Positions 11,231 to 51,307 of a stretch of DNA of 51,307 nucleotides are shown here, in pieces. Position 1 is the first letter of the stretch; every line of letters begins with the position of its first letter. The notes beneath the pieces are model-generated. The model saw only the letters and a list, made by a program, of their open reading frames with translations. It searched no databases and was not told where the DNA came from. The position numbers and the translations under genes are program-made. Source of the stretch: Eubacteriaceae bacterium (GTDB lineage: Bacteria > Bacillota > Clostridia > Eubacteriales > Anaerofustaceae); contig JAFXKY010000069.1 in assembly GCA_017531485.1 (NCBI GenBank), forward strand, positions 1 to 51,307, given 5' to 3'.

Positions 11231-11298
11231 AAAAAGAGCCGTCAGGCCCTTCATGAATCGTATTGAACAAAAAAAGAAAATGGTCGGAATGAGAGGAT
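11231..11298 (-). repeat. tRNA-Pro 3' end and terminator (copy B, native)
   Basis: The native partner of copy A: the 3' end of the intact tRNA-Pro gene, its spacer and its terminator (stem 11234-11240 with 11245-11251, one G-U pair on the minus strand, then five T). Confidence 0.85.
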
Positions 11299-11357
11299 TC
11301 GAACCTCCGGCCTCTTGGTCCCGAACCAAGCGCTCTACCAAGCTGAGCCACATCCCG
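11281..11357 (-). tRNA. tRNA-Pro (anticodon CGG)
   Basis: 77 nt including an encoded CCA (11281-11283). Acceptor stem CGGGATG/CATTCCG, D arm GCTC AGCTTGGTA GAGC, anticodon stem CTTGG/CCAAG with loop TTCGGGA, T arm GGAGG TTCGAAT CCTCT. The loop gives anticodon CGG, reading CCG proline codons. It has a consensus promoter 12 nt upstream and a terminator downstream. Confidence 0.95.
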
Positions 11358-11504: not shown

Positions 11505-11755
11505 TACTTAATAATACGCTATGAAGAGGGAGTAATCTGACGTATCGTATCAGGGAGGACGGGTCGTGACTGAAAGCCTGTCTTATGAAAAACGGATGAA
11601 AGACACTCGGAGCTTCGGACGGGAACAGAGTACTTTCCGACGTATTGCGGCGTTAACGCTTACTAAAGAGGGCTACAAAGACTTTTAGTCAATCAGGGTG
11701 GCACCGCGGGCTATGCTCGTCCCTGACACGGATTTATTCCATGTCAGTTTTTTTT
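11505..11755 (+). ncRNA. T-box riboswitch leader of hisS-aspS
   Basis: The hallmark T-box AGGGTGGCACCGCGGG is at 11695-11710. Stem I carries the usual AGTAA and GACTGAAAGCC...ATGAAAAACGG phrases. The specifier position, judged from the following ACTCGGAGC, reads GAC (Asp, 11602-11604); shifted two bases it reads CAC (His, 11604-11606). The terminator stem is 11723-11731 with 11739-11747 followed by a run of T; CCCT at 11721-11724 can instead pair with AGGG of the T-box to antiterminate. Uncharged tRNA would thus raise hisS-aspS expression. Confidence 0.95.
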
Positions 11756-30343: not shown

Positions 30344-30375
30344 GTCTTCTCCTGAATGGTTTTTCTTCAAAAGAT

Positions 30376-30403
30376 AAAGAGATCGCCCTCAGGCAATCTC
30401 TTT
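30376..30403 (-). terminator. Weak terminator/attenuator between lepA and hemW
   Basis: 12-bp stem with one mismatch (30376-30387 with 30392-30403), loop ctca. Only a short T-rich tail follows on the minus strand, so read-through into hemW is likely. Confidence 0.5.
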
Positions 30404-30407
30404 TAAT

Positions 30408-32213
30408 TCAGTCATCAAGCTTCAATACGCTCATGAAGGCTTCCTGAGGAACTTCGACTACGCCGATCTGACGCATCTTCTTCTTTCCTTCCTTCTGCTT
30501 TTCAAGAAGCTTTTTCTTTCTGGAAATATCGCCGCCGTAACATTTTGCAAGTACGTCTTTTCTGAGCGCACCGACTGTTTCGCGGGCGATGATCTTGCCG
30601 CCGATAGCCGCCTGAATGGGGATTTCGAACATCTGACGCGGAATTTCCTTCTTGAGCTTTTCAGCCATCTTTCTTCCGCGTTTGTATGCGGAATCTTCAT
30701 GCACGATGAATGAAAGCGCGTCCACCATCTCTCCGTTTAAGAGAATGTCCAGTTTCACAAGCTTGCTCTTTCTGTAATCCGCGATCTCATAATCAAGGGA
30801 CGCATAGCCCTTTGTGCGTGATTTGAGAGCATCGAAGAAGTCATAAATGATCTCATTGAGGGGAAGCTCGTATTTAAGGATAACGCGGCTGTCATCCACA
30901 TATTCCATTGTAACATAAATGCCTCGTCTTGACTGACAAAGCTCCATGACCGGACCGACATATTCCTTCGGAAGCATGATGTCCGCGTTTACGAACGGCT
31001 CTTCCATATAATTGATCTCAGCCATGTTCGGGAGGTTCGTCGGGTTTGATACTTCCAGAACTTCTCCGTTTGTCTTTATTACCTTATAAGCAACGGACGG
31101 TGCCGTCGTCACGAGATCGAGGTTATATTCCCTGTCGAGTCGCTGCTGAGTTACTTCGAGATGCAAAAGTCCCAGAAAACCGCAACGGAAACCAAATCCG
31201 AGGGCAGCACTCGTTTCGGGTTCATAAATGAGAGAAGCGTCGTTGAGCTTTAACTTTGCGATAGCCGCTTTTAAGTCTTCGTATTTTGAACCGTCTGCAG
31301 GATAGATACCGCAGTAAACCATCGGCTGGATGGTCTTGTAACCTGCGAGGGGTTCTTTTGCGGGGTTTTCCACTAAAGTCACCGTATCCCCGACACGTGT
31401 GTCCGCAACGTTCTTGATGGAAGCTGTGAGGTATCCTACTTCGCCTGAATGAAGTGCATCCACAGGACGTAAGACGTCTGTAAATACGCCTACTTCTTCA
31501 ACTTCAAATACCTTATTTGTAGCCATGAATTTGATCTTGTCACCGGCTTTGAGCACGCCGTCAACGATTCTGATAGATGCGATTACTCCGCGGTACTGAT
31601 CATAATAACTGTCGAAGATAAGCGCCCTGAGAGGCTCAGAATCGTTATCCTGCGGAGCAGGAACGTTCTGTACGATAGCTTCGAGAACGTCTTCGATGTT
31701 GATGCCTTCCTTTGCGGAGATCCTCGGAGCATCTTCCGCAGGAAGTCCGATATAATCTTCGATCTCCCTTATCGCCATTTCCGGATCGGCGCTGGGGAGG
31801 TCGATCTTGTTGATTACGGGGATGATCTCAAGGTCGTTTTCAAGCGCGAGATATACGTTTGCAAGTGTCTGTGCCTGAATGCCCTGTGTAGCATCGACGA
31901 TGAGGACAGCTCCTTCGCAAGCGGCGAGGGAACGGGATACTTCATAAGTGAAGTCAACGTGTCCGGGTGTGTCGATGAGGTTTAAGATGTATTCCTTTCC
32001 GTCTTTTGCCTTATATACGAGCCTGACAGCCTGAAGCTTGATCGTGATGCCTCTTTCTCTTTCAAGATCCATCTTGTCAAGAACCTGACTTACCATATCT
32101 CTCTGAGAGATAAGTCCTGTCTTTTCAATGAGTCTGTCTGCGAGAGTTGACTTGCCATGGTCGATATGAGCAATGATTGAAAAGTTTCTTGTTAATTCCT
32201 GTCTTTGCGCCAT
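30408..32213 (-). CDS. lepA: Elongation factor 4 (LepA)
   Basis: 601 residues, the standard length, from the ATG at 32213 (GGAG 9 nt upstream). Translational GTPase: G1 AHIDHGKST at 15-23, [13 protein letters not shown]3 DTPGHVDF, G4 NKIDLP, and the LepA-specific C-terminal end with [23 protein letters not shown]. It binds stalled ribosomes and can promote back-translocation. It starts one base after the stop of the MerR-type gene, so the two are translationally coupled. Confidence 0.98.
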
Positions 32214-35676: not shown

Positions 35677-35832
35677 GGTTCCTGCACCGCAGGAACTTCG
35701 CGGCATCCGCCGCGCCCTGCCCACCCGCCCCCCCCGCCGCAGGCTGCGATGAGGAAGCCTCATCGCAAGTTCAAAGCATGGCTTTGAACCGCCGAAGCTG
35801 CCGCTTCGGCGCGCCTGCGGCGGGGGAATAAA
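35677..35832. repeat. GC-rich hairpin-chain repeat, internal complete copy
   Basis: Abutting stems: 35678-35685/35689-35696 (loop acc), 35699-35704/35709-35714 (loop atcc), then a C-rich stretch 35715-35735, an outer 13-bp stem 35732-35744/35813-35825 that encloses 35745-35754/35758-35767 (loop aag), 35769-35777/35781-35789 (loop atg) and 35791-35798/35803-35810 (loop tgcc). It ends GGGGGAATAAAAAAA like the copy at the window start. Most stems differ in sequence from the terminal copies, but the size, loop lengths, C-rich left arm and tail match. It lies between a terminator and the next promoter. Confidence 0.9.
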
Positions 35833-39639: not shown

Positions 39640-39765
39640 TCCTTTTCTTGATATTGAAAGAGTATAAAAAATACCCTTTACCGCAATAAGATAAAGAGCT
39701 TGACTGCTTTAACTTACCTCGGCAGGAAATTAAGCTTTCGCACCTGCTTTCTGCGGTACAGTGGC
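39640..39765 (-). ncRNA. L10 leader (rplJ-rplL autoregulatory element)
   Basis: On the minus strand GCAGGTGCGAAAGCTTAA...TTCCTGCCGAGGTAA matches the conserved core of the Firmicute/bacterial L10 leader, in which a kink-turn binds the L10-L12 complex. It lies immediately upstream of rplJ. Confidence 0.85.
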
Positions 39766-39811
39766 TTTGCCACTAAAATTTTTATATTAAGGGGTGGGGT
39801 TGCCACCCCTT
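39760..39811. repeat. Two GC-apex hairpins in the rplA-rplJ gap
   Basis: AGTGGC-ttt-GCCACT (39760-39774) and AAGGGGTGG/CCACCCCTT (39789-39797 with 39803-39811). The first has the GTGGC...GCCAC stem core also used in the hairpin-chain repeats (51187-51197 and 99-108). Confidence 0.6.
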
Positions 39812-51132: not shown

Positions 51133-51307
51133 CCCCGCCCGCCCACCCCCTCCCGCGCCGCAAGCGATGCAAGCATCGCTTGCCCGTGGCAAAGCCACGG
51201 GCTGCGGCTTCGCTCCGCGAAGCCGCGCGGCGCTGCCGCCGCCGCGCGAAAGCAAGCTTTCGCGGCAAAGTGGCAAAGCCACTTTGCGAGCCGTGCCTGC
51301 ACGGCTC
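51133..51307. repeat. GC-rich hairpin-chain repeat, right copy (truncated)
   Basis: C-rich left arm (51133-51154), then abutting stems: 51161-51170/51173-51182 (loop aa), 51183-51190/51194-51201 (aaa), 51204-51213/51217-51226 (tcc), a GC-only stem about 51225-51249, 51245-51253/51256-51264 (aa), 51265-51274/51278-51287 (aaa), 51288-51296/51299-51307 (ct). The window ends exactly at the end of the last stem. The stem sequences equal those at 4-135 almost throughout; the loops differ. The right G-rich arm seen at 136-159 in the left copy lies outside. Confidence 0.9.

Follow-up and report, generated by a model that had tools for sequence, protein, structure and literature searches.

The cloverleaf at 35677 and the two ends of the window

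The window analysed here is a stretch of 51,307 nucleotides taken from a bacterial genome that we call the source genome (G000). Rfam and ARAGORN place in it a tRNA-Pro gene (11281-11357, minus strand), a T-box leader (11512-11727) and a ribosomal L10 leader (39658-39774, minus strand). Hairpin-rich DNA lies at 35677-35832 and at both ends of the window. Folding of the segment 35677-35832 as DNA gave -69.4 kcal/mol (z = -11.7, none of 200 shuffles as good) and folding as RNA gave z = -9.6. This reproduced, far beyond the shuffles, the outer stem and five hairpins of a preliminary description. The core of this copy is a 96-nt cloverleaf (35731-35826) in which an outer stem surrounds three abutting hairpins. 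The left arm of the outer stem, CCCCCGCCGCAGGC (35731-35744), pairs with the right arm at 35813-35826, which is followed by AATAAAAAAA; the predicted stem has 14 bp, one pair more than the 13 bp originally given. Inside it lie hairpin 1, TGCGATGAGGAAGCCTCATCGCA (35745-35767), the middle hairpin GTTCAAAGC-ATG-GCTTTGAAC (35769-35789), which is the partly conserved hairpin of the cloverleaf, and hairpin 3, CGCCGAAGC-TGCC-GCTTCGGCG (35790-35811). To the left, a C-rich arm (35715-35730, G-rich on the opposite strand) is preceded by two extra hairpins, GTTCCTGC/GCAGGAAC and CGCGGC/GCCGCG (35678-35714), which are outside the conserved unit. The AATAAAAAA tail, first described as shared by the left and internal copies, is frequent but not invariant.

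The same design had been described at 1-166 and 51133-51307, and both ends indeed fold well against shuffles (z = -7.8 for 1-170 and -8.0 for 51133-51307), but they represent a larger, double version with two tandem, head-to-head cloverleaves. The double element consists of a C-rich arm, cloverleaf A, a short GC hairpin, cloverleaf B and a G-rich arm, and often continues with an A-rich stretch followed by a hairpin of terminator type. Both end copies are truncated, as the contig itself starts and stops inside them. At the left end a truncated A cloverleaf (1-62) is followed by the B cloverleaf (63-145), whose arms CCGCCGCCG and ACGGCGGCGG enclose CGCGAAAGC-GAA-GCTTTCGCG, GCAAAGTGGC-GAA-GCCACTTTGC and GAGCCGTGCCGGCACGGCTC, and then by the G-rich arm GGGAGGCGGGCGGG, AATAAAAAAAA, a terminator-like hairpin and the flank CAACATTAT (146-206). 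At the right end the C-rich arm (51133-51154) leads into an A cloverleaf (51155-51233), in which GCGCCGC and GCGGCGC enclose hairpins beginning with AAGCGATGC, GCCCGTGGC and GCGGCTTCGC (90 bits with the covariance model R1, see below), and into a truncated B cloverleaf (51237-51307). Stem sequences were said to be mostly different among the three copies; this is true of the end copies against the 35677 copy, but the end copies share most stems with each other. An outward flank comprising an A-rich run, a hairpin such as GAAAAGTGC..GCACTTTTC and C(A/C)AC(A/C)TTAT is kept at many element ends of the source genome, for example at 166-206 of the window, and may belong to the full element.

Copies in the source genome and in relatives

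Within the source genome, blastn gave 5 matches with the 35677 copy and 15 with the right-end copy. R1, a covariance model made from ten A units, yielded 100 listed matches on both strands. After parsing and merging, the three copies of the preliminary description gave way to about 68 cloverleaf units at some 47 sites, most of them intergenic. The earlier proposal of a dispersed, non-coding, REP/MITE-like family is supported. An overlap of more than 20 bases with a called ORF was found for 6 of 73 elements. Many contig ends, including both ends of the window, fall within copies; the true copy number is therefore probably higher, and the elements explain many of the breaks in this genome's assembly. 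One contig end (C3; L007 1513-1654) is a 142-nt perfect palindrome made of a B-type unit, which probably arose as a chimera by fold-back during assembly.

From copy to copy the stem letters vary, but Watson-Crick pairing persists. In a sequence-only alignment, 98.6% of cells were paired, both-sided changes affected 11 of 37 pairs (42 cells), and the covariation score was 0.302 compared to 0.107 in shuffles, with 0 of 500 shuffles reaching it. Hairpin types are mixed, the first hairpin ACCGATGC occurring with either CCGAAGGC or CCCGTGGC as the middle one. This fits an exchange of modules; the mosaic combination of hairpin types, suggested at the outset, is supported.

Further repeats accompany the elements. 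The tail GGGC(T/A)GCGGTGGC..GCGAAGC.GGGGAGCG recurs beside elements of the source genome (C15:47557, C26:44537, C43:8533, C80:26412 and C65:17612). A second structured repeat, in which a CCGCTGAAAT..ATTTCAGCGG hairpin precedes GGACGGAG..ACCT..CGTCC with nested stems, adjoins several elements (L030 1748-1850, L068 1672-1770, L034 165-250) and lies before a serine-recombinase-like ORF at L030. A different hairpin repeat, likewise dispersed (CCCCCTTAC.G..GTAAGGGGG with CAGGGGGAT), was noted at L157 2150-2190, at L021 160-185 and in the flanks of C26:55039 and C27:12185.

The relative examined most closely is a genome of the same genus (G001; record SVCP01, a metagenome assembly labelled Anaerofustis stercorihominis). 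The copies gave no blastn match in G001, where R1 found 12 and the outer-stem pattern CCGCAGGC...GCCTGCGG found 24 copies (reversed control 0). G001 copies have the outer stem of the 35677 copy and a partly conserved middle hairpin, whereas the two hairpins beside it are different in almost every copy. Since the letters vary and the fold is kept, sequence searches miss the family, as blastn missed at least 24 copies in G001. CCGCCGCAGGC, part of the left outer-stem arm, was found again in G001, in uncultured Clostridia (CALVTR), in Neglectibacter and in G007 (CALWKX). When one genome per species was scanned for CCGCCGCAGGC...GCCTGCGGCGG, true three-hairpin interiors were found in SVCP01, CALVTR, Neglectibacter X58 and CALWKX. 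Most other matches, in GC-rich genomes, lacked such an interior and were put down to chance. Outer stems differ as well in G007 and part of CALVTR, and only the architecture is therefore common to all. A covariance-model survey of 246 genomes matched the source genome only, a result of little weight because scoring was limited to 18 candidates per genome and passed over most of the source genome's own copies too.

The design is nearly invariant: one stem surrounds, nearly always, exactly three hairpins. A sequence-blind finder that asked for an outer stem of at least 8 bp enclosing at least two abutting hairpins returned 42 units, all with three hairpins: 2 from the window, 17 from the G001 sample (390 kb), 12 from the G007 sample (309 kb), 10 from the CALVTR loci (32 kb) and 1 from Neglectibacter. 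The CALVTR loci and, to some extent, the G001 stretches had been picked for holding copies, which biases these densities; all but one of the G007 stretches had been picked independently of copies. Dinucleotide shuffles gave 0 units, a background of 461 kb of mainly GC-rich DNA gave one two-hairpin unit, and about 70 other Clostridia genomes (1.32 Mb) gave one three-hairpin unit (G008, same family) and one two-hairpin unit. Widening the spans to 24-260 changed nothing, save that some double elements of the source genome were read as one arm pair around seven hairpins (3+1+3); a few units parsed as 2, 4 or 6 hairpins when the seed was set to seven bases. The CALVTR loci L081, L110, L123 and L133 are very densely packed with a mosaic of structured non-coding repeats, among them cloverleaves with unrelated outer stems.

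Loops, occupied sites and candidate enzymes

The GC-loop-GC apex attributed to almost every hairpin was present in 144 of the 164 triloop hairpins of the source genome, though not in all. Moreover, 113 of these 164 triloops were GNA or TNC, against 12.5% expected for random trinucleotides; the bias is weaker in G007 and CALVTR. Terminator-like hairpins of the window and of G001 have mostly longer loops, with GNA/TNC triloops in 2 of 25. GC-GNA-GC is known in biophysics as an extraordinarily stable DNA mini-hairpin. The preference for GNA/TNC loops closed by GC.GC, unlike the terminators of the same genomes, suggests a fold of single-stranded DNA, and a class of extraordinarily stable DNA mini-hairpins has been described (PMC10527192). 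G.T pairs are scarce (5 of 2555), but this was rejected as proof of DNA over RNA because terminators of the same genomes give the same ratio. Identical loops within one cloverleaf did not exceed chance (p 0.11).

The two halves of the double element prefer opposite loops. When units were oriented by stem type and not by loop, B units had GNA 37 times and TNC 7 times, A units GNA 12 times and TNC 32 times (69 of 88, p about 8e-8 by a statistic that ignores shared descent). A and B therefore look like a single directional unit copied in inverted orientation. Single units disperse as well, as seen at 35731-35826 and in G001.

Comparison of orthologous sites bears on whether the elements move. Between two genes that we take from their proteins to be lepA and hemW, G001 carries a full cloverleaf, and the orthologous gap of the window (about 30344-30410, orthology by tblastn) is short and holds a small hairpin and no element. 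Another gene-terminator site is likewise occupied in G001 and empty in the source genome. A third site, at C17:21362 in G001 and across a contig break in the source genome (end of C30, start of C12), is occupied in both by different elements. Losses could equally be behind such two-species differences, from which gain and loss are not distinguishable. Furthermore, twin G001 copies 1.4 kb apart are near-identical from outer stem to outer stem, lie in unrelated flanks and differ by an inverted first-hairpin loop (CTGCG and CGCAG). From these comparisons we infer that the elements may move. Target-site duplications, which had been proposed as a check, were not noticed by eye in the element flanks, and neither a transposition event nor a transposase was seen.

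A linked TnpA_REP/Y1 transposase had also been envisaged. The only Y1 gene of the source genome (C73:12856-13170) lies beside genes resembling McsA/McsB, with no cloverleaf within 1.5 kb. G007 has elements and no Y1 match, G002 has 24 Y1 matches and no detected element, and across 67 genomes Y1 counts did not correlate with elements. We therefore rejected a Y1/RAYT partner on the grounds of this one unlinked gene and the lacking correlation. The twin copies of G001 (C82; L246 18217-19756) enclose a serine recombinase of 204 aa, assigned to Pfam Resolvase, and an ORF of 145 aa for which Pfam gave no match. As a dedicated enzyme this recombinase was rejected too: it is widespread in relatives without detected elements and absent from G007. 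A viral origin was discarded because the outer-stem pattern is absent from IMG/VR contigs.

Interpretation and comparison with known systems

We lean slightly towards the view that the cloverleaf is a non-autonomous, REPIN-like dispersed DNA element that acts as a folded single strand and is recognised by the shape of its four-way junction. The family would be defined by architecture, a single strand folding into a four-way junction of an outer stem and exactly three abutting hairpins, whose loops are short and mostly of GNA type. The fold would form when the locus is single-stranded, on the lagging or a displaced strand, and a structure-specific enzyme supplied in trans may recognise it and copy or move it to intergenic positions, frequently right behind terminators. 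The A+B form would then be an inverted pair comparable to a REPIN. An arm that has lost its pairing would cease to work, which would keep the stems perfect, and arm-to-arm correction may add to this.

It is possible, and we propose it tentatively, that shape alone is what matters, namely that the element is mobile DNA whose sequence drifts freely and whose single-stranded four-way junction mimics a Holliday junction, to be moved or copied by a junction-specific enzyme of a kind so far not connected with any repeat family. It is the fixed number of arms from which we infer recognition by a junction enzyme. The dispersed palindromes known from bacteria are found through their sequence; here a precise fold is kept while the letters vary, across genomes of differing base composition. 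If movement were confirmed, junction shape would be what marks this mobile element for recognition, and how structure alone can specify a DNA substrate in bacteria would become testable.

We consider it rather unlikely that the family is a host RNA element (a 3'-end stabiliser, insulator or bidirectional terminator) that has expanded in number. Its position is in keeping with such a role: among the 49 elements whose neighbours on both sides were called with a simple ORF scorer, the flanking genes are tandem for 32, convergent for 11 and divergent for 6, so that the elements are mostly 3' of genes; contig-edge copies were found 19 times at the 3' side and 5 times at the 5' side, and many elements come after a terminator. 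However, with a terminator often already upstream, with GNA/TNC triloops unlike those of terminators in the same genomes, with the preferred loops placed on both strands by double elements and with no match in Rfam, the RNA reading loses ground, and a stabiliser has no need of exactly three hairpins.

Selected chromosome-organising sites, BIME-like, bound by gyrase, HU-type or junction-binding proteins and spread by recombination, would account for the high copy number, the intergenic position and a shape that is kept while sequence is free. We regard this as unlikely, as the distribution is patchy: the elements were not detected in the majority of the family's genomes and are almost lacking in the other Clostridia sampled, and orthologous sites are unequally occupied.

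Quite improbable is a mutational by-product without function or enzyme, in which foldback copying at GC-NNN-GC microhomology is combined with templated correction from arm to arm. The near-universal GC.GC apex and the loop inverted between the near-identical G001 twins are what this process would produce, but it leaves unexplained why the hairpins number exactly three, why distant Clostridia have the outer stem CCGCCGCAGGC in common and how near-identical copies came to lie in new flanks. An assembly artefact of repeats at contig ends, to which the many contig ends in copies and the palindromic C3 end might point, is highly improbable and is refuted for the family as a whole by more than 25 copies inside contigs with different sequence on either side and by the same design in independently assembled genomes.

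The cloverleaf can be compared with several known systems. It is not an Rfam RNA (no match above the gathering threshold in Rfam 15). As the preliminary description had stated, it is not a CRISPR, since its abutting hairpins differ in sequence and have no spacers, nor an ordinary terminator. Intrinsic terminators share the GC-rich hairpins 3' of genes, but the element often comes after a terminator of its own standing and differs from terminators in loops and architecture, and the unit is bounded by C/G-rich arms while T-runs belong to separate upstream hairpins. MITEs share the non-autonomous size, the dispersal and the inverted ends, the outer stem here being the inverted repeat; in contrast to MITEs, there are no sequence-conserved terminal repeats past that stem, no target duplication was seen and no parent transposon was found. 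Mitochondrial hairpin elements differ in being organellar and in consisting of single, double or triple hairpins, with no fixed four-way junction known. Among them, double-hairpin elements, sponge RHE and yeast GC clusters are likewise hairpin-forming, intergenic, scattered, thought to be mobile and structurally divergent between taxa (PMC2800124, PMC4478555).

The closest likeness is to REP, BIME and REPIN sequences with their RAYTs. Compared to the 20-40 nt of a REP/REPIN unit, the cloverleaf unit measures about 80-110 nt, its sequence is not conserved, it has exactly three hairpins in one stem and, unlike in RAYT systems, the Y1 gene lacks flanking elements. The tags GTAG and CGTC that mark the foot of the stem in the two REP superfamilies (PMC3733652) are missing here, being found at 1 and 8 of 140 element ends, respectively; the elements are thus not tagged REPs of the described superfamilies. 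At the same time, both kinds of element are short, intergenic, palindromic and dispersed, occur as inverted pairs and are predicted to act as single-stranded DNA, and a 'clover' fold is named in the legend of a supplementary figure of the REPIN paper (PMC2817692, PMC3116915, PMC3733652).
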